This document shows, in pieces, positions 34,002-52,210 of a DNA stretch of 64,000 nucleotides. Numbering within the stretch: the first letter of the stretch is position 1; each line of letters opens with the position of its first letter. The stretch is taken from NCBI RefSeq assembly GCF_030348945.1, contig NZ_JAUCEN010000002.1, positions 620,001 through 684,000 of the forward strand, in the 5' to 3' direction. Both the position numbers and the translations under genes were made by a program. The notes under the pieces were generated by a model. That model was not told the DNA's origin, searched no databases, and saw only the letters and a list, made by a program, of their open reading frames with translations. This DNA comes from Peribacillus sp. ACCC06369 (GTDB lineage Bacteria > Bacillota > Bacilli > Bacillales > DSM-1321).

Positions 34002-34035
34002 GTACAATTCTTACAATTATGTATGCACTTAAACT

Positions 34036-34414
34036 CCCATGAAAATTAAAAAAGCACAAAATCTAGAAAAAACCACAACAAAATAGACTCAGTAAAAACG
34101 CTTTTTAAAAAAGGCTGAGCCTTATGAGTAATCTGATTGAGTTTGGTAAATCGTTAAACAAAAACCTCCAATCATACTTAAATTAGGTAGAGGCTAGCGC
34201 GACGACCAAAAAAGGATTAATCTCCCATGAGTGCTACCCATAAAGGGCGCGACAGTCGGTGGTACACCGTGGTCGTCGGAGTCAGACTAACGGATGGGCT
34301 CAAAGGCACCATAGTTCAACGACCTTCTTCGCCAGCCATTAAAACATTATCGACATAGAGACCAATTTTCATTCTCTGTGGTGAAGCGTTGATTTTTGCG
34401 CTTCATGGATGGCT
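34036..34414 (+). mobile_element. 379-bp structured noncoding element, copy 1
   Basis: The sequence is nearly identical to 39862-40240 and 51833-52210. It has no ORF. It begins CCCATGAAAATT and ends TTCATGGATGGCT, so CCATGAA and TTCATGG are short inverted ends. Inside, CGACGACC pairs with GGTCGTCG across about 60 bases holding smaller hairpins. GAAGCGTTGATTTTTGCGCTTC near the 3' end pairs with one G-U, where the other copies have G-C, so the stem is kept. It is inserted between AAACT and AACGGGTGCG of a composite repeat. Here the leader of that repeat is worn (TGTATGCACTTAAACT). Confidence 0.8.
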
Positions 34415-34440
34415 AACGGGTGCGTTAGTTGATTAAGGAT
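34415..34440 (+). repeat. Composite-repeat 5' module behind element copy 1
   Basis: AACGGGTGCGTTAGTTGATT plus AAGGA directly follows the element. It is the continuation of the interrupted 5' module. Confidence 0.7.
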
Positions 34441-34502
34441 CACAAAAATAATCTATCTTTTTTATAAAATAATCAAGAAGATTAAAAATATATGTTGTTC
34501 GA

Positions 34503-34535
34503 AAAAGGGGAGGGTATAGATTGCCTTCCCCTTTG
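34503..34535 (+). terminator. Rho-independent-type hairpin
   Basis: AAAGGGGAGG and CCTTCCCCTTT pair around a loop of about 11 bases. No gene lies directly upstream; it may end transcription coming from the interrupted repeat. The rest of 34415-34788 is AT-rich without a gene. Confidence 0.6.
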
Positions 34536-34788
34536 TGTATACAGATAAATTTATATGACTGTATTGTTTATAATGTACTCGATTTTGTATCTCAAAACAG
34601 TTTAGAGATTGAATTGGTGCGGTTTTGAGTGGATTAATAACTCTATGTACTCAAATTCATGTCCCCAATGTACTTATCTTTGTGTCTTCGTACAATTGGA
34701 AAAGCCCTTCTCTGGAACAGGCATTTTTTTCTACCTTTCATAAGAACATTAGTTCGTATATGATAAATAAAAAGGAGGGATCTTTCTG

Positions 34789-35129
34789 ATGAGTACAATT
34801 CGTGATAGAGGGCTCGTTAAATGGCAAGCAGCGCTGATTATGCCAGAACATAAAGCTTTAAATAAAAAAATGGGTGTGATTACTTCCTAAATAAAAAACC
34901 TGTCCTAGATGAATACCAGGTTGAAGAATTTGAAAACAACATTCATTATGCGATGGAATATCATTTACCGATAAGTTTTAGATTGCATAACGATGGAAAT
35001 CCAATTGAACTGCATGGATACTGTGTGTATATTGATCCTGTCACGAAAGTGTTAAGTATTCAGAAGAAAGATAGTTTCTTTGAGAAAATTAAATTTAATG
35101 AAATTATTAATGTAATCGTTGAGGATTAA
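34789..35129 (+). pseudogene. YolD-like protein gene, frameshifted
   Basis: ATG 34789 behind AAAGGAGGG begins STIRDRGLVKWQAALIMPEH, the N terminus of YolD-like proteins, which are usually encoded beside a UvrX/DNA polymerase Y gene. The frame stops at 34890. The next frame continues the family: KPVLDEYQVEEFENNIHYAM to IKFNEIINVIVED, stop 35127-35129. A one-base change in the seven-A run near 34862-34868 explains the break. No uvrX gene is nearby. Confidence 0.78.
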
Positions 35130-35172
35130 AACATTATTTGTACATATTCTGTAGTGCGTCATGAACACAAAA

Positions 35173-35200
35173 AAGCTTCACACAATTAAGTGTGAAGCTT
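35173..35200. terminator. Bidirectional terminator
   Basis: AAGCTTCACAC (35173-35183) and GTGTGAAGCTT (35190-35200) form a perfect 11-bp stem flanked by A and T-rich sequence. It can serve the YolD relic and the tRNA fragment. Confidence 0.8.
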
Positions 35201-35224
35201 GATGTAATAGCGATTCTTCGCTAT

Positions 35225-35282
35225 TGGTGATACCGGTGGCCGGGGTCGAACCGGCACTCCAGAGGAACACGATTTTGAGTCG
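35225..35282 (-). tRNA. 3' half of tRNA-Leu(CAA), truncated
   Basis: On the minus strand the sequence runs CGACTCAAAATCGTG (anticodon arm with CAA), then a short variable arm, the T arm GCCGGTTCGACCCCGGC, the 3' acceptor strand CACCGGTATCA and CCA. The D arm and the 5' acceptor strand are missing; upstream of the anticodon arm the sequence is unrelated (TTTTTTAGCC). This is how an attachment site looks after an element has integrated in or excised from a tRNA gene. A decayed integrase gene lies 1.2 kb away. Confidence 0.85.
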
Positions 35283-35502
35283 GGCTAAAAAATGTTAAAT
35301 TCCCCATTTGCGGAAACCGATATCCCTTAAAAACCATCATATTTCTCCCTCTTTTTGAACCGCGCAATGGGGAAACAAGCAAAAATTAGTCTCATAACTA
35401 TGAAAAACCACCAAAAAAACAGTAAATTCCTAATCAAATGGCAACCCCAAAGAGAACCACAAGCATAGAATTTCCAGATTCAGTGCCACTATGGTTTGAT
35501 AC

Positions 35503-35934
35503 TTATATCTTTCCGCTAAACTCCCACAGCCCAAGCTGCCCTTTTGCAGGAATATATTCATCGAGCATCCGCATGTCCTCAATTTCCCAGGCATAGCCGC
35601 CAACTCTGTAATCCCCTAAAAACAAGTCGTTCCCTGAAATAACCCGACTATCTTCTAAGACCGCCCAGTTTCCATTGTTTTCTTCTATTTTCAAACAGTT
35701 TTTCAGCTTGCAGACTCCAATTATCATTCCGGTCGGCAGATTATCTTCTGTATACCCATGCTTAGCCAGCAGCTCGGCAACTCCATCCAGTCTACAGGCG
35801 GGCTTATCTACTTTTTTGCTCGTATGAATAGCAAGAGGACCCCGATGATGCGTTCTCCAAGTCCTTGTTTCATATTCGGCTTCCCTAAGGACAAATAAGC
35901 TTGCCCAAGGCTGGATCATCGACAGTACTTTCAT
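35503..35934 (-). CDS. ASCH-domain protein
   Basis: This 143-residue protein has the ASCH/PUA-like fold: MKVLSMIQPWASLFVLREAE, YETRTWRTHHRGPLAIHTSK, then PTGMIIGVCKLKNC and YAWEIEDMRMLDEYIPAKGQ. ASCH domains bind RNA or modified nucleic acids and can have nuclease activity. ATG 35934 has AGGGGGA 8 bases upstream; an in-frame ATG at 35961 lacks one. It lies inside the supposed decayed integrative element. Confidence 0.82.
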   Translation of the reverse strand: MKVLSMIQPWASLFVLREAEYETRTWRTHHRGPLAIHTSKKVDKPACRLDGVAELLAKHGYTEDNLPTGMIIGVCKLKNCLKIEENNGNWAVLEDSRVISGNDLFLGDYRVGGYAWEIEDMRMLDEYIPAKGQLGLWEFSGKI

Positions 35935-36135
35935 TATTAATCCCCCTGCTCCTGACATCATTAAGTTAATTGGTTATATAGTTCCCTTGAATAAGGATAA
36001 TATAGACTGTATCTAGATTTAATGTTCTCTTTTGCCATAAAAAAGACAGCTAACCAAAATGTACGCTGTCCTCGTGGTCCTAACTATATTTTGTTGCAAC
36101 ACTAAGTGCATGTGGACATAATAGATGCTAGTGCA

Positions 36136-36276
36136 TTATTTTGGCAGTTCTACAGTAAACGGTTCTAACTTTTCACTGTCGATAAAGCTAGAAAAATCGA
36201 ATTGTAGAACAGTTTTCTCCTGCTTAAAATCAGCTATTTTTTCCTTTGTTTTGTCTATTAACTTGTGCTTAACGGC
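36136..36276 (-). pseudogene. C-terminal relic of a DUF4179-type anti-sigma gene
   Basis: The minus-strand frame ending at 36136 reads [20 protein letters not shown] then TVELPK. That aligns with the end of the gene at 53059-54474 ([20 protein letters not shown] then TVVLPVGNE). A TGA directly upstream cuts the frame. Only about 45 codons remain. The surrounding gap (35935-36449) has no other gene and a terminator-like hairpin at 36410-36440. Confidence 0.7.
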
Positions 36277-36449
36277 AGCTCACAAGGGAATACCCTAAAA
36301 AAGGCAATACTAAAGACACCTTGCAACATCGAATTTTTTTCCATACTATAAGGGTAAGGAAATTCCATATTTAGTTTTATAGGATTATTGATTTAAAATG
36401 TTTGGAGGCAGGGTATTGCGAGTACCTTGTCTCTTTTTTTTCATTCGAC

Positions 36450-37225
36450 TTAATTTCGTACCCTTTTTTTATTTATATTTTCAATCGGTGAAAACTCTTT
36501 GTGCTTTCTGATAACGTCATCAGAAAACAAATTTACATAGTGCTTTACCATTTCCATTGATGTATGTCCTAAAATTGCTTGAAGTTCAAAGATACCAGCA
36601 GATGCTTCTACAGATAATCGAGCAAAAGTATGTCTGAATTTATGACAAGTAGCTTGGATATTTATCGCTTTACCGTATCTTGATATTTGCGATTGCATCT
36701 GTCTTTTAGTTAATGGATCATTGTCGATATTTACAAATAGAAAATCATGTTCTAATACTCTCTAATCGAGAGGTATCTTTGGAGTTGTTCTTTCATCCTG
36801 TTCTGAATCGGTACGAAGCGTTGTTTGTATCCCTTTGTGTTTTGAATCAGTATTCTTGAGCGCGAGTAATCAATGTCTTTTATATTGATTCCTATACATT
36901 CAGATGCCCTTATACCTGTTTCAAGCAGCATCATAATAGTTAAGTCTCTGATGCCTGTAAATTTTCTGTGATTAGGTTGTTTAAAGAGAAGGTCAAGTTC
37001 ATCATTTGTATATGTTGGAACAGCGCACTTCCTATCTTTTACCAGCTTTATTTCACTCATTGGATTTTGTTTCTTCGTTATTAGCCGTTCTCTAACGAGG
37101 AAATTAAAGAAAGCTCTTATCTCCCTTAAACGCGTGTTAATAGTTACGGTCTTACAATTCTTGCTTTTCATATAACGAATGTCGCTTCGATTCAATGGTT
37201 CGAGAATTAGATAAGAAAAAAAGGA
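36450..37225 (-). pseudogene. Decayed tyrosine recombinase (integrase)
   Basis: Two frames together cover most of a phage/ICE-type integrase. The first (about 37225-36752) holds the end of the N-terminal domain (LREIRAFFNFLVRERLITKK) and the catalytic Arg (LLETGIRASECIGINIKDID). The second (36698-36450, open from about 36740) holds the box HKFRHTFARLSVEA and the final LGHTSMEMVKHYVNL with the catalytic Tyr. A frameshift lies between about 36740 and 36755, and the N terminus is missing. Confidence 0.8.
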
Positions 37226-37254
37226 TATACTGGAATAAAAGGGATTTAATTTGA

Positions 37255-37365
37255 ATTTTTTACCATTACACCTTCTATGAGACAGGTAATTTTGTAGTAA
37301 GTGTAGAATTAACTGAGGAAGAAATTAAAGAACTCGGGTTCAATGAGAAGGAGGAAGAAGAGTAA
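37255..37365 (+). pseudogene. C-terminal fragment of an unknown small protein
   Basis: The frame, open from a TGA at 37252, reads YHYTFYETGNFVVSVELTEE then EIKELGFNEKEEEE and stops at 37363-37365. The TAATG overlaps the next start. It has no start codon of its own, so it is the end of a gene lost by the integrase-side deletion. Confidence 0.5.
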
Positions 37366-37629
37366 TGAATAAAGACAACCTATTTATATATATTCATTCA
37401 TCCTGCATCTACAAAGACTGATGTTGATTTCTTTGGATATGATCATGAGGACACCAAATTTGAAGCACCTACACTGGCTAAATTAGAAAAATTTGATGAT
37501 CTTTCTAGTTGGCTTCATAAAATGCCTGAGGGCTCAAAAGTTCATTTAGCTGATATAACTTTAACTGTTTCAAATAACACTATTGAACTTAAGGATGAAG
37601 AATACACAAAAAAAGGCACAGAGATTTAG
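37365..37629 (+). pseudogene. Unknown protein gene with a four-base duplication
   Basis: ATG 37365 overlaps the previous stop and is preceded by AAGGAGGAAG. The frame begins MNKDNLFIYIH and stops after 18 codons. Removing one of two tandem ATTC units near 37391-37400 joins it to IHPASTKTDVDFFGYDHEDT through NTIELKDEEYTKKGTEI, stop 37627-37629. I do not recognise the family; it is acidic and soluble. Confidence 0.6.
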
Positions 37630-37638
37630 GAGTAATAA

Positions 37639-38007
37639 ATGAAGATTCAAATTGAGGTTCAATTGTTTGCGAACGGTGCTAATTTCTTACAGTCTGGTAG
37701 TTGTTCAGTAATAACAACTGACTTTAGAGAAGAACCGGAATGGACTGCTGCTGTATCAGCATATGAGTGGATACAAAAGATAAAAAACACTGTTCGCTAT
37801 CCAGACGACTTTCAAATTGTTAGAGTTGTTTACAACGGAGAAAATGACATTACAGATTTAGTAAGAAAAGTACGCCCTATAATAAAAGATGATTTACCTT
37901 TTTTAAAAAAATCAACTAATATTTTGGATTGGACAACCCTTAAACCAAAGAATTTAGAGGGCTGTTTTTATTTGTATCAATTTCTATTCTTTTTTTACAT
38001 GCGATAA
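37639..38007 (+). CDS. Unknown protein, 122 residues
   Basis: GGAG lies 8 bases before the ATG and the gene starts 10 bases after the previous one, so the three form an operon. The middle part DFREEPEWTAAVSAYEWIQK and PDDFQIVRVVYNGENDITDL is regular coding sequence. The end (FYLYQFLFFFYMR) is an unusual aromatic tail that may come from a frame change. I do not recognise the family. Confidence 0.6.
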   Translation: MKIQIEVQLFANGANFLQSGSCSVITTDFREEPEWTAAVSAYEWIQKIKNTVRYPDDFQIVRVVYNGENDITDLVRKVRPIIKDDLPFLKKSTNILDWTTLKPKNLEGCFYLYQFLFFFYMR

Positions 38008-38039
38008 TAAGGAAAAAAAGCTAATTTCGGGGGAGAGAT

Positions 38040-38603
38040 ATGTTTTTAATCGGAGCAGCAGTTCAAAGTTCAGGGTTACCACCCAGTTTTTATGGTTCAT
38101 TAATCGGTTCATTTATATCAGGTTCGGTAGCAGTAGGCATATTGATTTACAACAACTGGAAAAAGAACAAGGAATTTAATTTTCGTTGCTATGGCACAAT
38201 GAAAGTTATTAATGATCATTTGGTTTATCTATCTCAATGGGAACAATTGACATTGAAAGTATTAAGAGAAATGATAGATAAAGAAGGTTATAGAAACGAA
38301 GGACTTTTAAAAATTCTTAAAAACAGCAAAGGTTTTTTCGAAGAACAACATACATTATTAGAAAAAGAGCGAGCAAATATTCCTTATGACTTTACAACCA
38401 GATACTTCACAATCGTAAGTGCCATCCATTCGGTCACTGTTGCATATGATCAGCTCATCGAGGAACCCGGCGATCCTGATAGATATGAAACTCTTGTTAA
38501 TCAGATGAGTTATTGTAACAAGATTATAAAAGTATTTAATAAGAATACCACTCAATACCTGAAAAACGTGGAAAAGAAATATAAAATAAAGGATTTTTAT
38601 TAA
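38040..38603 (+). CDS. Unknown membrane-anchored protein, 187 residues
   Basis: CGGGGGAG precedes the ATG. One membrane span at about residues 18-38 (GSLIGSFISGSVAVGILIYN) is followed by a long cytoplasmic helical domain (FNFRCYGTMKVINDHLVYLS, DKEGYRNEGLLKILKNSKGF). It may be a small accessory-region protein; I do not know its function. Confidence 0.65.
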   Translation: MFLIGAAVQSSGLPPSFYGSLIGSFISGSVAVGILIYNNWKKNKEFNFRCYGTMKVINDHLVYLSQWEQLTLKVLREMIDKEGYRNEGLLKILKNSKGFFEEQHTLLEKERANIPYDFTTRYFTIVSAIHSVTVAYDQLIEEPGDPDRYETLVNQMSYCNKIIKVFNKNTTQYLKNVEKKYKIKDFY

Positions 38604-38625
38604 TACACTAACCGGGAGGATGTAA

Positions 38626-38808
38626 ATGAAAAATTTACTTAAATTATCTTTGATTCTTGCCTGTGCCTATTTTTTGATTCCGGCATCCGAAGATTGGATG
38701 ACTTGGAAACCATCCCTTTACCTTTTCGATGAAAATGGAAAATTAGTCGATAAATTAGAAGATATACCTAAACATCCTCCAATTAATTTGGCAGATTTTT
38801 TTCCTTAA
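38626..38808 (+). CDS. Small exported protein, 60 residues
   Basis: GGGAGG is 8 bases before the ATG. The first 22 residues (MKNLLKLSLILACAYFLIPA) form a signal or anchor sequence. LILAC is lipobox-like, though the Leu at -2 is unusual. The rest is short and acidic (YLFDENGKLVDKLEDIPKHP). It follows the 38040 gene by 22 bases and may be its partner. A terminator follows at about 38841-38870. Confidence 0.6.
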   Translation: MKNLLKLSLILACAYFLIPASEDWMTWKPSLYLFDENGKLVDKLEDIPKHPPINLADFFP

Positions 38809-38840
38809 ATCAAATAGATAAATTAGTAGATACACCTTAA

Positions 38841-38870
38841 TGAATCTCTTTAGAGGTTCTTTTTTTTATT
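38841..38870 (+). terminator. Terminator of the small-gene operon
   Basis: GAATCTCT and AGAGGTTC pair (one G-T wobble) with eight T behind. Confidence 0.7.
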
Positions 38871-39012
38871 TTAGTAGCAGATAAATATCAAAGGACATTT
38901 TCAAAGTTTGGGAAAGTGTCTTTTTATTTACACTTTTTAATTGTGTTATTGTGTTATTGCGTTTTTGTGTTATGAAATCATTAAATGACTCTAGTGTGTA
39001 TTTTTATTTGGT

Positions 39013-39093
39013 CAACTAACGGTGCATACATTGATAAGAAAGGTTGCTAAAGCAGCCTTTTTCTTATTGAACTATCGGGGAGGTTAGTTGCAG
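39013..39093 (+). repeat. Composite intergenic repeat, complete
   Basis: TCAACTAACGGTGCATACAT (5' module), AAGGTTGCTAAAGCAGCCTT with T5 (terminator), GAACTATCGGGGAGGTTAGT (3' module). Confidence 0.75.
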
Positions 39094-39182
39094 GATATTG
39101 TGAAACATTTCCATATAGAAGAATAGAAAAATAAGCTAATATAGGTTAAGGTAAGCCTTCAAGAACAGAACAGGAGGTTTTG

Positions 39183-39362
39183 ATGTTGAAACCACATACT
39201 CAAGGTTTTATCGCCTGTCTTATAGCAGTCATTTTAGCTGCGTTAACTATTAGGTTTAAGACTGGAACAGTTAATATAGAACTTATAATATTTTTTATAT
39301 CTTGCCTCTATGGTACTTATCTTCTCATTTCTTTTTATTATAGTCGAAATAGTAAAAACTAG
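39183..39362 (+). CDS. Small membrane protein, 59 residues
   Basis: ATG 39183 follows AGGAGG. The product has two hydrophobic spans (TQGFIACLIAVILAALTIRF; LIIFFISCLYGTYLLISFYY). No family recognised. A truncated copy of its start region lies at 28268-28360. Confidence 0.6.
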   Translation: MLKPHTQGFIACLIAVILAALTIRFKTGTVNIELIIFFISCLYGTYLLISFYYSRNSKN

Positions 39363-39376
39363 ATTCGTTCTTCAAC

Positions 39377-39463
39377 GCGTCGCATTAGTTAAAGAACGTA
39401 GATTGATTGGGGCAGTTTACAGCTTTTTTTTATGGAGCTAAAGGGTCAGGTTAGTTAATAAGG
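39377..39463 (+). repeat. Composite intergenic repeat, degenerate hairpin
   Basis: GTCGCATTAGTTAAAGAACG, a worn hairpin ending CAGCTTTTTTTT, then GGAGCTAAAGGGTCAGGTTA (3' module). Confidence 0.65.
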
Positions 39464-39513
39464 AATGCTATAATAACCTTAATTTCAAAACGATTTTAAG
39501 GAGTTAAACTCTT

Positions 39514-39822
39514 ATGATTATAAAAATTGACTTTGGTGACGATTTTATTCAATACATTTCTTGTTCAACAAAAGTAGGCAGGAAGATGAACAGTATTCAG
39601 GAGGACTTTCTAAATTGGATTTTTGACGAGGAAAAGAATACAGAATATTGGGCTTTAGAAAAAGGGGAAAGAATTCACCCTAATTATGATGCAAAAGCAA
39701 TTGTTGAATGGTTAAACAATGTAAGATTAAAGCGAGGAATAGCGAAAGCTAAATTAATCACGAATCCTCAATTATGTGTTAAAAAAGTAATTATATTTTT
39801 AGAGTGTTTCTTAAATGTTTAA
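39514..39822 (+). CDS. Unknown protein, about 102 residues, possibly truncated
   Basis: AAGGAG lies upstream of the ATG. The product reads IIKIDFGDDFIQYISCSTKV then EDFLNWIFDEEKNTEYWALE, with an acidic soluble character. The last part (CVKKVIIFLECFLNV) runs into a composite repeat that holds element copy 2, so the native C terminus may be missing. No family recognised. Confidence 0.55.
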   Translation: MIIKIDFGDDFIQYISCSTKVGRKMNSIQEDFLNWIFDEEKNTEYWALEKGERIHPNYDAKAIVEWLNNVRLKRGIAKAKLITNPQLCVKKVIIFLECFLNV

Positions 39823-39861
39823 TGTTCAAACCATAAGATCGTGAAAAAATGTACTTAAACT

Positions 39862-40240
39862 CCCATGAAAATTAAAAAAGCACAAAATCTAGAAAAAACC
39901 ACAACAAAATAGACTCAGTAAAAACGCTTTTTAAAAAAGGCTGAGCCTTATGAGTGATCTGATTGAGTTTGGTAAATCGTTAAACAAAAACCTCCAATCA
40001 TACTTAAATTAGGTAGAGGCTAGCGCGACGACCAAAAAAGGATTAATCTCCCATGAGTGCTACCCATAAAGGGCGCGACAGTCGGTGGTACACCGTGGTC
40101 GTCGGAGTCAGACTAACGGATGGGCTCAAAGGCACCATAGTTCAACGACCTTCTTCGCCAGCCATTAAAACATTATCGACATAGAGACTAATTTTCATTC
40201 TCTGTGGTGAAGCGCTGATTTTTGCGCTTCATGGATGGCT
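39862..40240 (+). mobile_element. 379-bp structured noncoding element, copy 2
   Basis: The copy differs from copy 1 at only a few positions. The left flank is an intact composite-repeat leader (GTGAAAAAATGTACTTAAACT, about 39841-39861) and the right flank is AACGGGTGCGTTCG. So the composite repeat was cut between CT and AACGGG with no bases gained beyond the element. The IS110-family element starts about 75 bases downstream. Confidence 0.8.
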
Positions 40241-40302
40241 AACGGGTGCGTTCGTATCATAAGGTTGACCAGTAAAAATTACTGGTTGACCTTTTTTTAA
40301 TA
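40241..40302 (+). repeat. Composite repeat with terminator behind element copy 2
   Basis: AACGGGTGCGTTCGTATCAT, then GGTTGACCAGTAA and TTACTGGTTGACC (perfect 13-bp stem) with seven T. The 3' module is absent; the IS110-family element follows. Confidence 0.72.
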
Positions 40303-40317
40303 GAATCTATTATATCA

Positions 40318-40490
40318 GTAGCCAGGGTAGGACGTACGGGTGCGTGGGACTTGATCCCGTGAACTAAACTGTTCGCCCCCTACTTGTAGAAACATGTTTG
40401 AGGCTGGTTGGGACGTGGATCTCGTATAACAAGCGAAGCTATGACACTACATGGAGGACTAGGGGTACTGGTAAATAAGTGGAGGAGGAA
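40318..40490 (+). ncRNA. Candidate bridge-RNA region of the second IS110-family element
   Basis: This is the GC-richer noncoding leader directly before the transposase, with pairing segments such as GGGACTTGATCCC and TAGGACGTACGGGTGCGT against the C-rich GCCCCCTA. IS110-group elements carry the bridge RNA upstream of the gene. Limits are approximate and the call is inference. Confidence 0.42.
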
Positions 40491-40497
40491 AAAAGCA

Positions 40498-41703
40498 ATG
40501 AATCCAGTTGTTGGTCTGGATGTAGCAAAAGGAGAGAGCCAAGTTCAGGCATTTTTAGATCAATCTAAACCGTATGGGAAGAGCTTTTCAATGAAGCATA
40601 TCAAAGAGGAATTAGATCATTTATTAGACTTTTTAAAAGAGATTGAAGTGGTGACAGGGCAGATGCCTATGGTCATTTTAGAATCTACAGGGCATTACCA
40701 TACTCCTGTTATTCAATACTTGGAGGAACAAGGGATTCTATATATCTTACTAAATCCGATTATTTCTTATCAGGCAAAGAAGACCAGTTTACGAAAGGTA
40801 AAAACAGACGCAATCGATGCGTACCAGTTGTGTGTGCTGTATTACAAAGAGGATTTTGAACCTCATAAAATTAGAGGAATTCAGCTTTTAGACCTTCGGA
40901 ATTTGTCCAGACAACAGGAAATCGTAACGAATATGTATGTGGAAGCTAAACTTCAGTTTCACACCATTTTAGATCAAGTGTTTCCTGAATATCGGAAGGT
41001 TTTTGGGGATCTGTATTCGAAGGTTTCTTTATTGATGTTAAAGGAATATCCTACTTCAGAGGCTGTATTAACAGCCGGAGAAAGTAGACTAGCAGAGAGT
41101 GTTATAGAGTTCTGTTCTAGCCGATCCGGTCAATGGGCATGGGGAAAAGCAAAAAAAATAATGGACTCCGTATCTCGGAATCCATTTCAAAAAAACGTGT
41201 ATGAAAGTCACGTAATTAATCTTCGTATGTACATTGAGTTGCTTTTTCATTACCAGGGGCACCTTTCTGATTTGGAAGATCGTATAGTGGCCCTGGCAAA
41301 TGAACTGGAAGAATATAAGATCATCCAATCGATACCCGGTATCGGTGAAAAAATCAAAGCCACGATTATCTCTGAAATTGGTGAAATCGATCGGTTTAAT
41401 CATCCGAAAAAACTGGTTGCCTTCGCTGGAGTAGATCCAAGTGTTCACTCATCGGGTAAGTTTACAGCAACCATTAATCGTATGACAAAAAGAGGTTCGA
41501 GCAGACTACGTCATTCTCTGTATCTTGCCGTACTATGCGGCATAAGAAGTTCAAGGAACAAAAAGCTTAAAGCATTCTATGATAAGAAAAAATCAGAAGG
41601 AAAACCTGCCAAAGTGTCAATCGTTGCCTGTGTGAATAAGTTGCTTCATTGGATTTATGCTTTATTAAAGAGAAAAGAAACGTTCCTAGATTTAGCCTAT
41701 TAA
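40498..41703 (+). CDS. IS110-family transposase (DEDD recombinase)
   Basis: This 401-residue protein has VVGLDVAKGESQVQAF, VILESTGHYHTPVIQYL and KVKTDAIDAYQLCVLYY in the N-terminal RuvC-like domain, and IIQSIPGIGEKIKATIISEI, LVAFAGVDPSVHSSGKF and MTKRGSSRLRHSLYLAV in the C-terminal Tnp2 domain. It starts at ATG 40498 after GGAGGAGG; the open frame from 40408 is leader sequence. It is full length and distinct from the IS110-type protein at 22892. The right end of the element lies within about 100 bases after the stop. Confidence 0.87.
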   Translation: MNPVVGLDVAKGESQVQAFLDQSKPYGKSFSMKHIKEELDHLLDFLKEIEVVTGQMPMVILESTGHYHTPVIQYLEEQGILYILLNPIISYQAKKTSLRKVKTDAIDAYQLCVLYYKEDFEPHKIRGIQLLDLRNLSRQQEIVTNMYVEAKLQFHTILDQVFPEYRKVFGDLYSKVSLLMLKEYPTSEAVLTAGESRLAESVIEFCSSRSGQWAWGKAKKIMDSVSRNPFQKNVYESHVINLRMYIELLFHYQGHLSDLEDRIVALANELEEYKIIQSIPGIGEKIKATIISEIGEIDRFNHPKKLVAFAGVDPSVHSSGKFTATINRMTKRGSSRLRHSLYLAVLCGIRSSRNKKLKAFYDKKKSEGKPAKVSIVACVNKLLHWIYALLKRKETFLDLAY

Positions 41704-42202
41704 CGGTTTTGTGTAACAGAGAAAAATCCTTCCAAAAGGTTTTGGAGGGTTATTTGGCGTGGCCAAAAATAGTATATCATAAGGGAAATGAAAATTTTAG
41801 AGAAAGATATTGACATCCTATTAGCTGGTTTAGTTCACTAAAAGAAAAAAGGAGAGTATATTATACATGGCTAAAATGTACTCTCGTTTATTTATTAAGT
41901 TTTTTTATAATTAGGTCTAGATAACTTAAGTCACTAATTTGTCCATCCGTGAGGTAGATAATGTATATTGAAGAATACTTTAAAAATGATAAAATCTTCA
42001 GTTTAGTGCATCCCAGTTAATTATTATAGAAGAAACACGTACAGTGGTTTTTTGTATTCATTAACAAGATGGTTCAAGAGGGAAGTGTTAGTACAGATTC
42101 TCATTTTACGAATTAAATATTGACACTAAAGAAAAATAGAAGTATGATAATGAAGTCGCCTAATTAACGAGCGATATTAACAAAATATTTTCTTCGTAGA
42201 AG
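41704..42202. other. Region between the IS110 element and the rRNA operon
   Basis: Contains the right end of the IS110-family element and AT-rich sequence. No gene is visible. An imperfect inverted repeat (GGAGAGTATA...TGTACTCTC) lies at about 41852-41875. Confidence 0.4.
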
Positions 42203-42348: not shown

Positions 42349-43907
<1,559 letters not shown>

Positions 43908-44076
43908 ATAATTACGAGAGCGCTTTTGTTTTGTTCAGTTTTGAATGAGTAATTCATTCAGATAGGGAAGAAAAACATCACGATGTGATGGATTCTTTCT
44001 GCTTTGTTCCTTGAAAACTAGATAATAGATAGAAGGCAATTAATTTTTTTCAAAGCATCTGTAAGATCTTTTTAAC

Positions 44077-47008
<2,932 letters not shown>

Positions 47009-47074
47009 ACGCTTTTTAAAAAATGAAATACCTTCTTATTATCTAGTTTTGAAGGAACAACGTTCCTGATATGT

Positions 47075-47190
<116 letters not shown>

Positions 47191-47258
47191 AAGTTTATCA
47201 CATCAAATAGGATTCATAAACCCGTATAAACAGGTTCAAATCCTATCTTAGCATTCTA

Positions 47259-47287
47259 AACCTTAGGATTCTCCTAAGGTTTTTTTG
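47259..47287 (+). terminator. Terminator of the rRNA operon
   Basis: AACCTTAGGA (47259-47268) and TCCTAAGGTT (47272-47281) form a perfect stem with a 3-base loop, followed by a T run. Confidence 0.88.
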
Positions 47288-47350
47288 TATAAATTCAACT
47301 TTTCGTTGGAAAGGCTTATTAATAGCATGATTTTGGTAGGGGGCCTCTCG

Positions 47351-48202
47351 ATGACCAGTAAAGAAGAAAACCTGGACAATAAACAAATTCTTCATTCTTT
47401 TGCCGAATGGTTAATGGGTCAAAATAAATCCGATGGTACGATTAAAACCTATGTGGGAGTCATCTCCCAGTTTCTTCAATGGTTTAAAGAAGAAGCGGAA
47501 GAGATTGAAAAATCCCACGTGCAAACCTATATAGACGATATGGAACAGTCAAACAAGAGTGGAGGAACGATTGAAAAACATTATTCAGCCATTACCATGT
47601 TTTCCAGGTTCCTTGATAAACCCGAGATCGTCCTCAACATTGATCGTAAAGCAAAGGAAAAGAAAGAAGATCCGCCAAAAGCCCTGAACATGCTTGAGCA
47701 AGCTGCTCTCCTAAAAGAAATCGAGGCCTCTGGTCATTTCAGGAATATTGCTATAGTCTACACAATGATACATACGGGTATCCGGGTGTCCGAACTTTGT
47801 GATTTGAACCATAGCGACATTCAAAAAGAGGGAGAAAGGCAATATATCCTCATCCGGGATTCAAAAGGTGATATAGACAGGAAGATTCCACTGTCCATAA
47901 CTGCTAGTGAAAAGATCAAGGCATACAAGGAATTTTTAAATATGGAAACGGAAGCCATCTTCATATCCAGTGTGAATCAGCGCATCACGCCAAGGTCCGT
48001 GCAATATATGCTGACTAAATATAATGCGACTCCCCATAAGCTGCGGAGTACGTTTTGCCAAAAACTAATCGATAAGGGGATAGACCTTCAAACCGTTTCA
48101 AAATTGATGGGGCATAAAGATTTGAACATGACCAAACGTTATATAGGAGAAGGAAAAGAAGAATTGGAATTAGCCATTGAAAATACTTTTGATAATTTAT
48201 AA
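47351..48202 (+). CDS. Tyrosine recombinase, XerC/D-like
   Basis: This 283-residue protein has an N-terminal SAM-like core-binding domain (FAEWLMGQNKSDGTIKTYVG) and a C-terminal catalytic domain. The Arg I box is HTGIRVSELCDLN, the His-x-x-Arg box is HKLRSTFCQKLID, and MGHKDLNMTKRYIGEG carries His and the nucleophile Tyr. GGTAGGGGG 7 bases upstream supports ATG 47351. It sits directly after the rRNA terminator. It could act at an attachment site near the operon, or be a resident recombinase; there is no partner gene. Confidence 0.82.
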   Translation: MTSKEENLDNKQILHSFAEWLMGQNKSDGTIKTYVGVISQFLQWFKEEAEEIEKSHVQTYIDDMEQSNKSGGTIEKHYSAITMFSRFLDKPEIVLNIDRKAKEKKEDPPKALNMLEQAALLKEIEASGHFRNIAIVYTMIHTGIRVSELCDLNHSDIQKEGERQYILIRDSKGDIDRKIPLSITASEKIKAYKEFLNMETEAIFISSVNQRITPRSVQYMLTKYNATPHKLRSTFCQKLIDKGIDLQTVSKLMGHKDLNMTKRYIGEGKEELELAIENTFDNL

Positions 48203-48254
48203 GGGCCCTTTGGTAAAATCCTTTTCTTATGGTATTTCCTCTTTAGAGGATAAT

Positions 48255-48304
48255 AAAAAAGACACTGCTCCCAATAAAGATTAAGGGAAACAGTGTCTTT
48301 TTTA
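48255..48304. terminator. Terminator of the recombinase gene
   Basis: AAAAAAGACACTG and CAGTGTCTTTTTT pair with a loop that has a further CCC/GGG pairing. It works in both directions. Confidence 0.8.
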
Positions 48305-48353
48305 TTGTGTCCAAATAGAAGAAAGAAACAATTTAAGATGTGCCCGCCTTTTT

Positions 48354-48787
48354 TTAATTGTTCAAATCACTCAAGCCGGGGCTATGTTCATTTGGCATAT
48401 CCGGCATTTCGGGAACCGGGAATCCTTTTGGCGGCTCGGTATAAGGTTTCCACCATTTCGGCTCGGTGTCTCCCCTTGGGAAATTTCGCTGATTTGAGTT
48501 TGATCCAATCTGAAGTTGAATTGGGCATTATGGTAGCCTAAATCCACATATTTGCGGCATTCGGGATATTTGTTCAAATCATAATTGGGTACAGGGAAGA
48601 TTTTTCCCCAGTCGACACCAAGCGTTTCCAATGCCTTGGCAAATGCATTTTGGTGCGCATTGTCGCAAACTATTAAAAATGCCAGTGTTTCACGCATTGT
48701 TTTATTGGAACTCATTTCATAAATCCTGGACTTTTGCAGGACACCAGTAGATTCAAGCATGACAATGTTCAAAAGGTTAGCTTAGCG
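48354..48787 (-). pseudogene. Manganese catalase (YdbD/CotJC-like), truncated and frameshifted
   Basis: The minus strand reads VMLESTGVLQKSRIYEMSSN, FLIVCDNAHQNAFAKALETL, DWGKIFPVPNYDLNKYPECR and QFNFRLDQTQISEI, the core of Mn catalases. The part before VMLES is missing and a TAA lies upstream. After GGNLIPS the family C terminus is in another frame: EPPKGFPVPEMPDMPNEHSP then GLSDLNN, stop 48354. So both ends are damaged. A frameshift lies near 48430-48470. Confidence 0.78.
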
Positions 48788-48959
48788 TATGGATAGTGCT
48801 ATCCGTCCTCTTTATTTATTTAGCAATAAAAAAAGAGAACGGGAATCCATCATAGTTCAAGCTCATTACCTATGCAAATTGTATTGTGAATAATTTTGCC
48901 TGAGATTAATGGACTTTTCCCTTCAAATGTGTTCCTTAGCCTTACGCCTTACGTATATT

Positions 48960-49151
48960 CTATTCGATTTCATCATCAAGCAGGTGCAGGATATCTTCTA
49001 CGACACCCGCATGATCACCTTTTCGAAATTTATCAATAAAGTCTATATAAAGAAGCTCAAACACCTTTTCTAGTGTGTAGCCATGTTCAGGTTGAACTTC
49101 CTCCATATCGGCAAGCAACACCTCTCCACGTAAGGCGTATTTCCTTCTCAT
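48960..49151 (-). CDS. Unknown acidic protein, 63 residues, possibly a fragment
   Basis: The frame reads RKYALRGEVLLADMEEVQPE then HGYTLEKVFELLYIDFIDKF and ends ILHLLDDEIE. No ribosome site precedes ATG 49151, and an alternative start (TTG 49163) is no better. It may be the C-terminal end of a larger protein. The segment 48791-48959 before it holds no gene. Confidence 0.45.
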   Translation of the reverse strand: MRRKYALRGEVLLADMEEVQPEHGYTLEKVFELLYIDFIDKFRKGDHAGVVEDILHLLDDEIE

Positions 49152-49277
49152 GCGTAAATTCAAAGTTTTTAATTCTTGGTTCTATTCTTTATGAATTAAT
49201 TTAAAAGCAGATTCACCATACTTTTCAAGTCTTGAATCTTTACCAGCATACTGATCCAATGAGGTAAGCAATTTAAT

Positions 49278-49427
49278 ATGATAGCAAGTAATTTTGGACC
49301 ACAGTTACTCGTTGAAGGGTTTGGCCTATCATTAACACAAGCTTCAAGATATGGGAAGTTAGAGGATTATCTTTTAGAAGAACAAATAAGATCAGAACGT
49401 GATTTTATTATGGAAAATGGGACTTAA
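49278..49427 (+). pseudogene. Short relic ORF, 49 codons
   Basis: ATG 49278 begins IASNFGPQLLVEGFGLSLTQ then ASRYGKLEDYLLEEQIRSER and stops at 49427. It has normal coding composition but no ribosome site. A minus-strand remnant (LLTSLDQYAGKDSRLEKYGE) lies at about 49190-49270. Both look like ends of lost genes. Confidence 0.35.
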
Positions 49428-49613
49428 CTGTTTTTAATTAAGAGGTGATCTAGTTAATGGGGAAATAACCCTGAGTAGGTCGTTTATATTCTATTTTTTT
49501 ATAATGTAGGATTTTTTCTTATTTAGCAATCGGGCCATTTAATGGAATAATGGAGTTAGTATAGTTTCATGGACACATTTTAGTTAAGTCCTTACAATGA
49601 TTTTTGAGAGGAT

Positions 49614-49898
49614 GTGTCCGTCTTGGAACGTAAGAATACAGGTAAAAAATACAATAATGAATTCAAGAAGACTATTGTAGATCTTTATCACTCGGGTAAT
49701 TCGGTCAAAGAATTAAGCGGCGAATATGGCGTATCAGAAGTTACCATTTATAAATGGGTTAAAGAATTTACTCCAATCGGTTTAGGGGAAGAGTCCATGA
49801 CTCCAAAGGAATTAGCCGCCATTCAAAAGGAAAACCTTCGGTTAAAGCAAGAAGTTGAAATCTTAAAAAAGGCTATGGCCATATTCGCGAAAAAGTAA
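49614..49898 (+). CDS. IS3-family transposase OrfA
   Basis: This 94-residue protein has a helix-turn-helix (GNSVKELSGEYGVSEVTIYK) and a zipper-like helix (AIQKENLRLKQEVEILKKAM). It ends ...AKK-stop at an AAAAAG slippery run. The start is GTG 49614 or TTG 49623. Confidence 0.82.
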   Translation: MSVLERKNTGKKYNNEFKKTIVDLYHSGNSVKELSGEYGVSEVTIYKWVKEFTPIGLGEESMTPKELAAIQKENLRLKQEVEILKKAMAIFAKK

Positions 49899-49957
49899 CC
49901 GAAACAGATCTTACCGAATTTATTGAGGAACACAAGAAACAATATCCCGTACAGAAG

Positions 49958-50773
49958 ATGTGTGAAATACTAGAAATCCCAAGAAGCAGCCATTATCAGT
50001 CCCTTCAAATAGTCGTATCAAATCGCGAACAGGAAAACCAAGAAATCACGAAGGAAATTCATCTCATTTACCTGGAAAGCAAGGGACGATATGGGGCTCC
50101 AAAGATTCATGAAAGCTTATTAACCAAAGGGTTTTCCCTAAGTCTAAAGCGTGTTCAACGCTTAATGAGCAAGGCGAGAATTCGTTCTATTACTAAGAAA
50201 AAATACCGTCCCTATCCATCTAAAGAAAAGGTTATTCAATTGGATAATTTGTTAAAACGAGACTTCACTACTCAGACCATTAATGAGAAATGGGTAGCAG
50301 ATATTACGTATATCCATACGTTAAAAGACGGATGGTGTTATTTAGCTTCGGTATTAGACCTTCATTCTAAGAAAATAGTAGGGTATTCATTTTCTCGTTC
50401 AATGACGACAGAACTGGTCATAAAAGCTTTCAATAACGCACACCTATCACAAAAGCCCTCGGAGGGCTTAGTTCTTCATACCGATCTTGGCTCACAATAT
50501 ACAAGCAGTGAGTTTACTCAACATATCCAAAACCATCATATTAAGCAATCCTTTAGTCAGAAAGGTTGCCCGTACGATAATGCCTGTATTGAATCCTTTC
50601 ATGCCCTATTAAAGAAGGAAGAAGTCAACCACGTACAATATCTAGACTATCAAACAGCTAAATTAGCGATGTTCCAATTTATTGAAGGTTGGTATAACCG
50701 AAAAAGAATTCACAGCAGCTTGGGTTATCAAACCCCACAAGCCATTGAAGATCGAATTAGGAATACAGCTTAA
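49958..50773 (+). CDS. IS3-family transposase OrfB (integrase core)
   Basis: The product (271 residues from ATG 49958) has the DDE core: EKWVADITYIHTLKDGWCYL, LVLHTDLGSQYTSSEF and KGCPYDNACIESFHALLKKE. The frame is open back to about 49895 in the -1 frame relative to orfA (VTETDLTEFIEEHKKQYPVQ), so an OrfAB fusion by slippage at GCG AAA AAG is expected. Intact. Confidence 0.86.
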   Translation: MCEILEIPRSSHYQSLQIVVSNREQENQEITKEIHLIYLESKGRYGAPKIHESLLTKGFSLSLKRVQRLMSKARIRSITKKKYRPYPSKEKVIQLDNLLKRDFTTQTINEKWVADITYIHTLKDGWCYLASVLDLHSKKIVGYSFSRSMTTELVIKAFNNAHLSQKPSEGLVLHTDLGSQYTSSEFTQHIQNHHIKQSFSQKGCPYDNACIESFHALLKKEEVNHVQYLDYQTAKLAMFQFIEGWYNRKRIHSSLGYQTPQAIEDRIRNTA

Positions 50774-50888
50774 GATTTAACTTTTTAGTGTCCAAAATAT
50801 TGACTCAAATCCATTAAAGTTGTTTATGTTATTCCATTAAAGGGCCATATTGCGGAAGAAGAAATTGTAATCCAATCGAAGTAATTAA

Positions 50889-50963
50889 GTGAAAATAATT
50901 TGTGGTACAGGTACTGGTAAAAGTACTTTGCCAAATATAAAGGAAAAAATAAGTATGATTTAG
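50889..50963 (+). pseudogene. P-loop gene fragment, 24 codons
   Basis: GTG 50889 begins KIICGTGTGKSTLPNIKEKI, a Walker-A-type start of a small ATPase or kinase, then stops at 50963. It is probably the remains of a nucleoside/adenylate-kinase-like gene next to the IS3 element. Confidence 0.4.
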
Positions 50964-50978
50964 AAAGTAGGTAAATAA

Positions 50979-51695
50979 ATGATTCCATTAGTATATGATC
51001 AAATTAATAGCTGGGGTAAAGACGATGAATTCTTCTTAGCACTGTTAAAGAAGGTAAATGTTAAAAAAATAGCTGATTTGGGTTGTGGAACTGGAAGATT
51101 GACAACGCATTTTGCGAAAGTAGGCTATCATATTACAGCTATTGACCCGAATGAAGAAGCAATCGAATATGCGGAAAACAAAGCGTATCCAGGCGAAGTG
51201 ACTTGGATTGTTGGTGATAGCTCAAAATTACAAACAAGTGGGTTTGATGCCGTTATAATGACAGCGAATGTTGCGCAAGTATTTCTTACAGATGAAAGTT
51301 GGCAACACGTCATTTCAGATGCATATCGAGCATTAAAGCCTGGAGGACATTTTATCTTTGATACACGTAACCCATTAGCAAAGGCGTGGGAACAGTGGAA
51401 AAAGGATATGACACCTGATATTGCAACGAATCAGATGACTGGTGATACACTTGAAATATGGACAGAATACGAGGGATTTATAGAAGATGTTTTTACATTT
51501 TATGAAACTGTGAAAAATGCACGTACAGAAGAAGTAGTAATTCATAAAAAGATGCAATTAAAATTCCGAACACAAGATGAAATCCATGAATCATTACAAC
51601 AAGTAGGCTTTTCACAATTCCAAGTTTATGGAGATTGGGAGTTTAAACAAGCAACTTCAGAAACCAAATCTTTTATTTTTCACAGTGTAAAATAA
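50979..51695 (+). CDS. Class I SAM-dependent methyltransferase
   Basis: This 238-residue protein has the SAM-binding motifs IADLGCGTGRLTTHFAKVGY (motif I, about residues 31-50), ITAIDPNEEAIEYAENK, and FDAVIMTANVAQVF; ALKPGGHFIFDTRNP is motif III. The second half matches Bacillus methyltransferases of unknown substrate. A weak AAAGTAGG site precedes the ATG. Confidence 0.85.
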   Translation: MIPLVYDQINSWGKDDEFFLALLKKVNVKKIADLGCGTGRLTTHFAKVGYHITAIDPNEEAIEYAENKAYPGEVTWIVGDSSKLQTSGFDAVIMTANVAQVFLTDESWQHVISDAYRALKPGGHFIFDTRNPLAKAWEQWKKDMTPDIATNQMTGDTLEIWTEYEGFIEDVFTFYETVKNARTEEVVIHKKMQLKFRTQDEIHESLQQVGFSQFQVYGDWEFKQATSETKSFIFHSVK

Positions 51696-51769
51696 ATAAG
51701 GGATTTCTTTGACGATTTGCTTATCTACTTTGACAATTTCATTATTAGAAACGAAAGAATGAAAGAGAG

Positions 51770-51832
51770 ACAATTATTATATTCAGCAATCGGGCGCGAT
51801 TCTTTAATAAGAATCGCTTTTCTTAATGAACT
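51770..51832 (+). repeat. Composite intergenic repeat, variant hairpin, cut by element copy 3
   Basis: AGCAATCGGGCGCGATTC, loop, GAATCGC and TTTTCTTAATGAACT. The hairpin is the GCGATTC type seen at 18853. The 3' module is interrupted after AACT by the 378-bp element. Confidence 0.7.
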
Positions 51833-52210
51833 CCCATGAAAATTAAAAAAGCACAAAATCTAGAAAAAACCACAACAAAATAGACCCAGTAAAAACGCTT
51901 TTAAAAAAGGCTGAGCCTTATGAGTGATCTGATTGAGTTTGGTAAATCGTTAAACAAAAACCTCCAATCATACTTAAATTAGGTAGAGGCTAGCGCGACG
52001 ACCAAAAAAGGATTAATCTCCCATGAGTGCTACCCATAAAGGGCGCGACAGTCGGTGGTACACCGTGGTCGTCGGAGTCAGACTAACGGATGGGCTCAAA
52101 GGCACCATAGTTCAACGACCTTCTTCGCCAGCCATTAAAACATTATCGACATAGAGACCAATTTTCATTCTCTGTGGTGAAGCGCTGATTTTTGCGCTTC
52201 ATGGATGGCT
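51833..52210 (+). mobile_element. 378-bp structured noncoding element, copy 3
   Basis: It is nearly identical to copies 1 and 2, with one T fewer in the T/A run near 51903. The left flank is TTAATGAACT and the right flank AACGGGTGCTTTAG, so the target AACT/AACGGG is the same although the left context differs (a 3' module here, a leader in copies 1 and 2). No ORF is present. Confidence 0.8.

Follow-up and report, generated by a model that had tools for sequence, protein, structure and literature searches.

Three short noncoding copies in a host hairpin repeat

The window analysed here, a 64,000-nucleotide stretch of the Peribacillus sp. ACCC06369 genome, contains three copies of a short noncoding element that align with one another over their full length and show few differences in pairwise comparison. 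A group II intron is also found nearby within the window. The copies and the host sequence around copy 1 are listed below, the strand given to the copies being that of the gene in autonomous relatives.

34036..34414, minus strand: copy 1, predicted recombinase-less bridge-RNA element (end-to-end alignment, genome scan, junctions)
39862..40240, minus strand: copy 2 of the predicted element (alignment, genome scan, junctions)
51833..52210, minus strand: copy 3 of the predicted element (alignment, genome scan; empty counterpart in a related genome)
34032..34035, no strand assigned: left-hand AACT of the host hairpin target, which resumes at 34415 (rejoined flanks, repeat count)
34415..34430, no strand assigned: right-hand continuation of the host hairpin target, AACGGGTGCGTTAGTT (rejoined flanks, repeat count)

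Genome-wide there are seven full-length copies, 94-100% identical to copy 1, two of them on a second, 158-kb contig; the terminal 50 bp alone matched at two further places. The longest stop-free run is 45 codons in the two copies checked, copy 1 and the most divergent one. All seven are flanked by A(A/G)CT^AACGGG in constant orientation. The flanks of copy 1, when rejoined, form AACTAACGGGTGCGTTAGTT, a perfect small hairpin. This 20-mer (one free base, at most one mismatch) occurs uninterrupted 12 times in the genome versus 0 for a reversed control, and the 9-mer ACTAACGGG on its own shows no enrichment in the genome (59 versus 60 in the control). A first-pass annotation of the window had described three near-identical, ORF-free copies with a fixed target and orientation inside a host hairpin; these claims hold, and four more copies are now added.

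Target duplication is likewise absent at the insertion sites, as that annotation had it. A refinement is that a core CT (34034-34035 and 34413-34414 for copy 1) is common to both junctions and leaves the element boundary ambiguous by 2 bp, which is expected from IS110-type core recombination. The empty counterpart of copy 3 in a related genome has 169 identical bases, 160 to the left and 9 to the right of the junction, with no base gained or lost there; farther right this locus carries a different repeat module. Insertion at a dinucleotide core with no target duplication is characteristic of the IS110 family.

Autonomous relatives and distribution

Plasmid-borne relatives occur in Peribacillus, Paenibacillus, Cytobacillus and other genera, on which ground an identity with Bacillus cereus bcr repeats was set aside. 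Some relatives are autonomous. These share the end and the RNA region at about 83% identity, with a recombinase gene that starts about 260 bp in and a total length of about 1.6 kb. The gene encodes an IS110-family recombinase (PF01548 and PF02371; NCBIfam NF033542, 287 bits), and in two PLSDB plasmids an "IS110 family transposase" is annotated next to the RNA. In these autonomous recB elements the RNA lies upstream of the gene. At the other end TTTTCATGG is shared with the recB elements, the base beside the core differing from that of most. The window element lacks the DEDD recombinase gene (PF01548 and PF02371) of its autonomous relatives, and is thus a derivative rather than a complete IS110 member.

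Elements without a recombinase occur in several Bacillales genera in a narrow length range, 365-385 bp where both ends were located. Among 112 family RNA copies sampled, 88 are lone and 24 accompany a gene; to be counted, a recombinase had to reach 60% identity at E 1e-60 and begin between -50 and 250 nt past the RNA, criteria strict enough that decayed autonomous copies are included among the 88. Of 31 genomes with lone RNAs, 21 have no recombinase at least 60% identical among the matches at E 1e-60. Depending on the scan, up to 19 or up to 16 candidates per genome, the best 2 per genome or 150 of 1143 were scored, so that copy counts are to be read as "at least"; some lone rows of the later scan are close to contig ends, and the divergent copies listed are those less than 90% identical to copy 1. 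Derivatives of about 210 bp, with ends and without the RNA, also exist. There were no matches among 50,697 phage records, and one viral contig bears an autonomous relative.

In a first tree, which excluded 7 named rows, rows shorter than 220 bases and rows more than 97% identical to a kept row, the recombinase-less elements fall in one clade, most of them in one supported group. In a wider tree (19 hits skipped; excluded were 39 unclassified rows, any containing N and any more than 94% identical to a kept row) they are split, with at least three changes forced and four needed, and some short elements cluster with autonomous relatives that carry the CATGGG donor code described below. The branching suggests that the recombinase-less elements had more than one origin, or recombined.

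The RNA region and its guides

Within the copies, the following features were assigned, those inside the RNA being given for copy 1 except for the core itself:

34190..34338, minus strand: predicted bridge-RNA core, copy 1 (covariance model R1, 171.8 bits)
40016..40164, minus strand: predicted bridge-RNA core, copy 2 (covariance model R1)
51986..52134, minus strand: predicted bridge-RNA core, copy 3 (covariance model R1)
34383..34404, minus strand: end hairpin GAAGCG(T/C)...GCGCTTC (two-sided changes in relatives)
34037..34043, no strand assigned: subterminal inverted repeat CCATGAA, read from the sequence; partner TTCATGG
34402..34408, no strand assigned: subterminal inverted repeat TTCATGG, read from the sequence
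34313..34319, minus strand: putative target guide, 5' side, UUGAACU, reading in the sense of the left target, core CT included
34287..34295, minus strand: putative target guide, 3' side, AUCCGUUAG, pairing with the right target CTAACGG
34222..34229, minus strand: putative donor guide CAUGGGAG, pairing with the element's own end CTCCCATG

The stems noted at first pass (CCATGAA/TTCATGG, GAAGCGC/GCGCTTC and CGACGACC/GGTCGTCG) are all present, and the latter two show compensatory changes on both sides among related elements. The end hairpin may represent the RNA's 5' stem-loop. RNAalifold, run automatically, gave a weak consensus (-12.67 kcal/mol, double changes in 2 of 28 pairs), in part because the alignment ends are out of register. 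Model R1 was built on this poor structure and so rests mainly on sequence. For the preferred structure, helices were named by hand, one local gap was shifted and pairs were counted, so that it leans on the analyst's choice; one hand-named pair is present in just 24 of the 36 rows, and one stem has an alternative partner whose fit is similar at 5 of 7 pairs. No promoter stood out in a promoter search, which gave one weak minus-strand site, within chance and outside the RNA core.

Guide complementarity lies on the minus strand, that is, in the direction of the relatives' recombinase gene. Guide and target co-vary as pairs across the family (CCGTTAG/AACGG, CCTTTAG/AAAGG, CATTTAG/AAATG and others), and the donor guide changes along with the element's own end. 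Agreement was counted in 36 representatives less than 93% identical, using only rows whose ends were found by sequence patterns, a few of which were misread (the guide of L133 in the first test, some targets in later tables). For the right target, 141 of 150 positions are paired in 30 usable rows (shuffle mean 121.8, maximum 132 over 20000 shuffles); for the donor, 121 of 126 in 21 rows (shuffle mean 109.2, maximum 118); for the left target, 57 of 84 in 21 rows, a value reached by 31 of 20000 shuffles. The agreement extends to elements without a recombinase taken by themselves: a second scan, of genomes partly overlapping the first, with 14 of 20 representatives usable for each target, gave 62/70 for the right target (reached by 7 of 20000 shuffles) and 42/56 for the left (18 of 20000). 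Three genomes offer a direct contrast. In one, a lone CCTTTAG guide sits at ccctttag and the autonomous element there is CCGTTAG; in the second, a lone CATTTAG guide sits at ccatttag with an autonomous CAGTTAG element; in the third, a lone CCTTTAG guide sits at ccctttag, again with an autonomous CAGTTAG element. Mismatched guides are found in some copies (L007, L032, L034, L077, L078, L084, L255, L312, L358 and L360).

The donor guide of the window-type element fits its own end, CATGGG, and not the CATGGT of most autonomous relatives; the CATGGG code is present in a few of these (L185, L236). Covariation supports this one donor guide against the element's own junction. A second, left donor guide candidate, UUUAUGGGUAGC, fits copy 1 and not the autonomous relatives, and is not a convincing assignment. 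The predicted target guides match both strands of the insertion site, as in the IS110 family. Judged by these comparisons, the minus-strand RNA of each copy is a predicted bridge RNA (seekRNA) of the IS110 family. The first-pass reading of a mobile, non-autonomous element whose RNA folds survives in its main part; its choice of family and of strand does not, the relatives being IS110 elements and the RNA lying on the minus strand.

A proposed explanation and its alternatives

The copies are probably non-autonomous members of the IS110 family, made of the ends and a complete-looking bridge RNA, that are moved by an IS110 recombinase acting in trans. Transcription, partner and reaction would be as follows. 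The minus strand would be transcribed, and an autonomous relative (recB-like, present or in the recent past) would supply the recombinase, which would bind the element's RNA. This RNA would have two pairing partners: as donor the element's own ends, and as target the arm ACT^AACGG in the abundant host hairpin repeat. The element would be excised as a circle, recombining at the CT dinucleotide, and the circle junction would join ...TTTTCATGGG to AGCCATCC.... Since its donor guide fits its own CATGGG end, the element would carry its own address labels and borrow the enzyme alone; a guide fitting CATGGT would be CAUGGUAG in place of the CATGGG-fitting one. Autonomous relatives with the CATGGG code would be the natural helpers. 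In the sections consulted of two studies, the RNA region, or enzyme plus RNA, functions in trans in published assays (PMC11187229, PMC11208160).

It is unlikely that the copies are ordinary deletion derivatives, in which an autonomous IS110 element mobilises the ends through its own bridge RNA and the RNA in the short copies is a passenger. The RNA-less derivatives of about 210 bp imply that ends alone can probably be moved, and this account also draws on the few CATGGG autonomous relatives, on the grouping of some short elements with them in the wider tree, and on the degraded guides of some short copies. However, guide and target still change together among recombinase-less elements alone, and the CATGGT code of most autonomous relatives mismatches the ends of the short elements. 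Moreover, in the three genomes above the short element occupies the target of its own guide and not that of the autonomous element, although scoring was confined to the best two places in each genome and a further autonomous element may be missed there.

A second account, which we hold to be improbable to a like degree, keeps the guide-only element and names as its enzyme a distant resident IS110 recombinase (for example of the 413-aa or 431-aa type) in place of a recB-like one. No close recB-like recombinase was found in the element's own genome, where the best match is 42% identical and contains a stop codon. PF02371 is found at 18 places in the same genome, several of them multi-copy and with open frames, and insertions of its other IS110 families seem to fall in this host repeat too. 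In addition, the consulted part of PMC11187229 predicts matching seekRNA segments for two transposases that share 46% identity. Against this, the bridge-RNA model finds beside the own-genome IS110 loci only copy 2, in L115, and a pair of chance-level hits in L123, and similar RNA scaffolds occur next to recB-like genes. The multi-copy IS110 families of the genome, considered as partners, have ends and RNA regions that look different. An IS110 gene on plasmid L191, 1.7 kb from a recombinase-less copy, shares no more than 25% identity with recB.

Passive segmental duplication, or a family of host small-RNA genes, has no finding in its favour and is very improbable given identical ends amid unrelated flanks, host sequence unchanged between the filled and empty sites of copy 3, and further copies on the second contig and on plasmids of other species. 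Least credible of all are the first-pass candidates, an IS200/IS605 element or an IscB/HEARO omegaRNA element without its ORF, which would suit the many hairpins, fixed left target and lack of target duplication, but Rfam gave only 12 chance-level matches to copy 1 up to E 10, far under gathering scores and none of them HEARO, no copy reached a gathering score, the genome has no Y1 transposase (PF01797, 0 matches; the positive control was detected in 5 of 14 genomes), and the relatives encode IS110 recombinases.

Comparison with known systems

The preferred reading, a bridge-RNA element moved in trans, resembles IS110 elements such as IS621, as the consulted sections of PMC11208160 describe them, in its CT core, absence of target duplication, and target guides and one donor guide that covary with target and donor, with the RNA at the gene-upstream end in autonomous relatives. 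It differs from IS621 in having no recombinase gene and, as that paper is understood here, in guides that are reversed relative to the gene; lone RNAs exceed gene-linked ones in the sampled family (88 versus 24). Features shared with the IS1111 group and its seekRNA, from the consulted part of PMC11187229, are a top-strand match 5' of the bottom-strand match, a subterminal inverted repeat of 6-7 bp and palindromic-repeat targets. IS1111 elements have a long RNA downstream of the gene and subterminal repeats of 7-17 bp, whereas the RNA here is upstream in relatives (the norm in IS110, an exception in IS1111), the repeat is 6-7 bp and the window element has no gene.

Like bacterial MITEs, the element is short, non-autonomous and multi-copy, and one end and the RNA region are common to it and the recB elements. 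MITEs have just transposase-recognised ends, whereas this element would also bring a guide RNA of its own that specifies both donor and target. IscB/HEARO and IS200/IS605 elements share its shortness, structured RNA and lack of target duplication, and differ in enzyme, RNA and chemistry.

Implications

Bridge RNAs have been reported as components of complete IS110 elements in the sections consulted of PMC11208160 and PMC11187229. No description of recombinase-less elements with a bridge RNA was found in the PubMed Central open literature searched, which included the consulted parts of these two papers and of PMC12859917, PMC11578231, PMC10969869 and PMC12045711. If the proposal is true, these elements would be natural guide-only users of bridge-RNA recombination, and nature would already separate, as engineers do, a mobile guide with its own ends from a recombinase supplied in trans. 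Their natural, apparently recently active sets of donor, guide and target could inform rules of orthogonality (GGG versus GGT donor codes, several target codes). A bolder form of the proposal, for which the chances seem evenly poised, is that these are persistent bridge-RNA satellites, reduced to ends and a bispecific guide RNA and having donor and target codes of their own. Lacking an enzyme gene, they would spread and diversify among genera of the Bacillales, change the code of their target guides, and make use of IS110 recombinases supplied by passing autonomous elements and plasmids. The question raised is how a guide-only element multiplies where the genome shows no matching enzyme; the proposed reading would account for one class of noncoding repeats in Bacillales.

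Copies of the element and their landing site

Comparison bears out the first-pass annotation in describing near-identical copies at window 34036-34414 (copy 1), 39862-40240 (copy 2) and 51833-52210 (copy 3). Seven full copies, 94-100% identical to copy 1, are present in the 5.6-Mb, two-contig genome (two of the seven on the 158-kb contig), and the last 50 bp of the element alone is matched at two more places. All seven lie in a single orientation, with A(A/G)CT on one side and AACGGG on the other. The joined flanks of copy 1 give AACTAACGGGTGCGTTAGTT, a perfect hairpin that occurs uninterrupted (at most one mismatch) at 12 other places in the genome versus none for the reversed control. The suggested comparison of filled with empty sites was informative: the left flank of copy 3 has a counterpart in a related genome, identical over 169 bases, that runs into the uninterrupted target, so that insertion was precise. 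That genome has one RNA copy, whose flanks are those of the most diverged copy here (loci L032 and L007), and the other copies were therefore probably gained after the two genomes split.

Other IS110 elements seem to have landed in this hairpin repeat as well. A 431-aa gene of a different subfamily lies at window 40240-41703; its element apparently starts near 40251, on the right arm of a hairpin that has copy 2 in its left arm, and one landing site thus seems common to two bridge-RNA-type elements. Two multi-copy IS110 families of this genome, of 413 and 384 aa (L111-L114 and L116-L119), apparently sit in variants of this host hairpin too; the repeat may serve bridge-RNA elements as a shared landing pad. 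Two Rfam domain models of group II introns, D1D4-3 and D1D4-1, match window 54756-55051, and a 420-aa ORF (55223-56485) follows; the region is probably a group II intron with its own reverse transcriptase.

Three kinds of related element

Homologues, whose collection the first-pass annotation had proposed, were found in genus, family, order and plasmids. In the genus 33 of 36 genomes, and in the family 38 of 43, carry a match of some kind, as do at least 63 of the 397 genomes sampled from the order (32 of 135 genera; a lower bound, as two candidates were scored per genome) and 15 of 72,556 plasmid records. Kind A, which includes the window copies, is about 380 bp and has no gene. Kind B shares the end of kind A, matches it over about 225 bp and then has a gene that starts about 260 bp into the element; the opposite end lies at about 1.6 kb. 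Its product is an IS110-family recombinase (NF033542, described there as RNA-guided, 287 bits; PF01548; PF02371), and PLSDB also annotates the gene adjoining the RNA in two plasmids as IS110 family. The first-pass strand has to be exchanged, as the plus strand is opposite to that of the kind B gene and, presumably, of the RNA. Kind C, about 210 bp, retains the outer 50 bp, ends in CATGGT and has neither RNA nor gene. Several genomes of the genus have similar miniatures at different targets; those of this genome are:

C2:4613021, L008, kind C miniature with outer 50 bp and CATGGT end
C2:4595576, L060, kind C miniature with outer 50 bp and CATGGT end

A putative bridge RNA with co-changing guides

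In IS110 elements, as described in PMC11208160, a noncoding RNA has one loop that pairs with the target and a second that pairs with the junction of the element itself, the core dinucleotide being part of the pairing. The corresponding predicted guides of the present elements are, in the gene direction:

Left target guide: UUGAACU, the left target plus the CU core
3' target guide: AUCCGUUAG, whose last seven bases pair with CTAACGG
Donor guide: CAUGGGAG, pairing with the element end CTCCCATG

Co-change gave the decisive evidence. Where the 3' target guide varies among relatives, the occupied target varies with it: CCUUUAG with CTAAAGG, CCUAUAG with CTATAGG, CCGAUAG with CTATCGG, CCCAUAG with CTATGGG, GCGUUAG with CTAACGC, CAUUUAG with CTAAATG, CAGUUAG with CTAACTG, CCCGCAG with CTGCGGG, UGCACAG with CTGTGCA, and UGCGCAG with CTGCGCA. 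One element, L237 (UGCGCAG), sits at a site one base off, and the guides of L007, L032, L034, L077, L078, L255, L312, L358 and L360 no longer fit. Among 36 representatives less than 93% identical, compared with 20,000 shuffles that leave relatedness among elements in place, the right target guide pairs at 141 of 150 positions (30 usable rows; shuffle mean 121.8, maximum 132) and the donor guide with its own end at 121 of 126 (21 rows; mean 109.2, maximum 118). Agreement for the left target guide is 57 of 84 (21 rows; mean 48.5), a value reached by 31 shuffles. Judged from these alignments, the single guide and target substitutions are hard to explain other than by co-change, and the putative RNA is best read as a bridge RNA.

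The folded structure claimed at first pass gains support from compensatory changes among relatives, which favor an RNA. Both sides change together in the closing stem (GGCUGGCG/CGCUAGCC, GGCUGACG/CGUCAGCC, GCUGGAG/CUCCAGC and others) and in the end hairpin (AAGCGC/GCGCUU, AAUCGC/GCGAUU, UAGCGU/ACGCUA and others), and pair 95-107 is kept in 36 of 36 rows as U-A, G-U or A-U. Evidence on the other side is that the automatic consensus fold of the RNA was poor; in the hand-named structure, moreover, no more than 24 of 36 rows keep one of the pairs, and for one stem a different partner fits nearly as well.

Recombinase-less elements and their own RNA

A 23-base kind A pattern found 101 stretches in a collection of 84,980 genomes, in partial overlap with genomes already used. 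The RNA rows parsed, from pattern stretches and one viral contig found with a shorter pattern, number 108; 102 have no recB-like gene (recB being the recombinase of autonomous relatives) starting 100-300 nt downstream, and the six that do carry four CATGGT and two CATGGG guides. All 73 lone rows with both ends found are 365-385 bp, although lengths of about 250-457 were admitted by the search. The end is CATGGG in 72 of them, as the donor guide demands, and CTTGGG in the other. Most kind B rows in which guide and end could both be read show CATGGT in each; the exceptions L185 and L236 have switched both to CATGGG, and L187 has the end CATAGT with the guide AATAGT. Donor guide and end mismatch in kind A elements L083, L084, L007, L077 and L078.

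With recombinase-less elements taken alone (14 usable of 20 representatives for each guide), the right target guide pairs at 62 of 70 positions and the left at 42 of 56, values reached by 7 and 18 of 20,000 shuffles, respectively. In three genomes where kinds A and B have differing guides the lone element is at its own guide's target: CCTTTAG at ccctttag (autonomous CCGTTAG), CATTTAG at ccatttag (autonomous CAGTTAG) and CCTTTAG at ccctttag (autonomous CAGTTAG), the two best places having been scored in each genome, which may hold more autonomous elements. Divergent kind A copies mostly keep an identity of 0.81-0.89 in the RNA region versus 0.64-0.74 in the spacer, a pattern that L084, L085, L037 and L260 do not clearly show. 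The recombinase-less elements thus seem, by these comparisons, to use their own RNA.

A possibly borrowed enzyme

Scoring 150 of 1143 first-look candidates, the RNA model recovered the seven kind A copies in this genome and nothing else; beside its IS110 loci it found copy 2 itself and two chance-level matches only. The closest recB relative here, L121 (C1:85706-86926), is 42% identical and has a stop codon inside. A further, different IS110-family recombinase gene (424 aa) lies at window 22892-24166. Family-wide, a recB-like gene follows the RNA at 24 of 112 places and none follows at 88. Lone RNAs occur in 31 genomes: ten of these also contain a recB-like gene with at least 60% identity, one (the present genome) contains the distant recombinase alone, and in 20 no recombinase passes the threshold applied. 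The CATGGT code of miniatures L008 and L060 suggests that kind B was once present here and has since been lost. In published work (PMC11187229) the RNA region is shown to be active in trans, and a cargo flanked by the ends was mobilized with enzyme and RNA coming from separate sources; transposases 46% identical are predicted there to have matching seekRNA segments in common. By this analogy a borrowed enzyme would be mechanistically plausible.

Origins of the recombinase-less form

A first tree, built from 52 end regions (20 A, 32 B), places all of kind A on one side of a single branch (93/87; recovered in 92% of 200 bootstrap trees). Kind A does not stay together when the tree is widened to 72 regions (39 A, 33 B). 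There, 28 of the 39 A rows fall into one supported group (99/93), wide and diverse, with members from Bacillaceae and Paenibacillaceae and a Sporosarcina; another six (Psychrobacillus, Sporosarcina, Paenisporosarcina) join autonomous elements of the CATGGG type (100/98), which are candidate helpers; three are apparent A/B mosaics and two lie elsewhere. The recombinase-less L082, L083 and L267 have an RNA 5' part like the autonomous kind and are apparently mosaics of both. Four changes are needed on the wider tree, at least three of them forced, and a constraint holding kind A together is unrejected (p-AU 0.255). Given this splitting, recombinase-less forms probably had more than one origin or recombined repeatedly.

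Guide-only mobile elements

The element works like an IS110-family element yet is not a complete member: a search for the recombinase showed that the gene is missing. On a reading of PMC11187229, the order of the guides and the subterminal inverted repeat of 6-7 bp resemble IS1111, whereas the RNA upstream of the gene in autonomous relatives is IS110-like; the mixture is a secondary oddity. No description of recombinase-less elements with a bridge RNA was found in the open-access papers searched. Anatomy and covariation are firm as features of sequence; transcription of the putative RNA, the partner enzyme and the reaction are proposed. The family of guide-only mobile elements is real and apparently was recently active.
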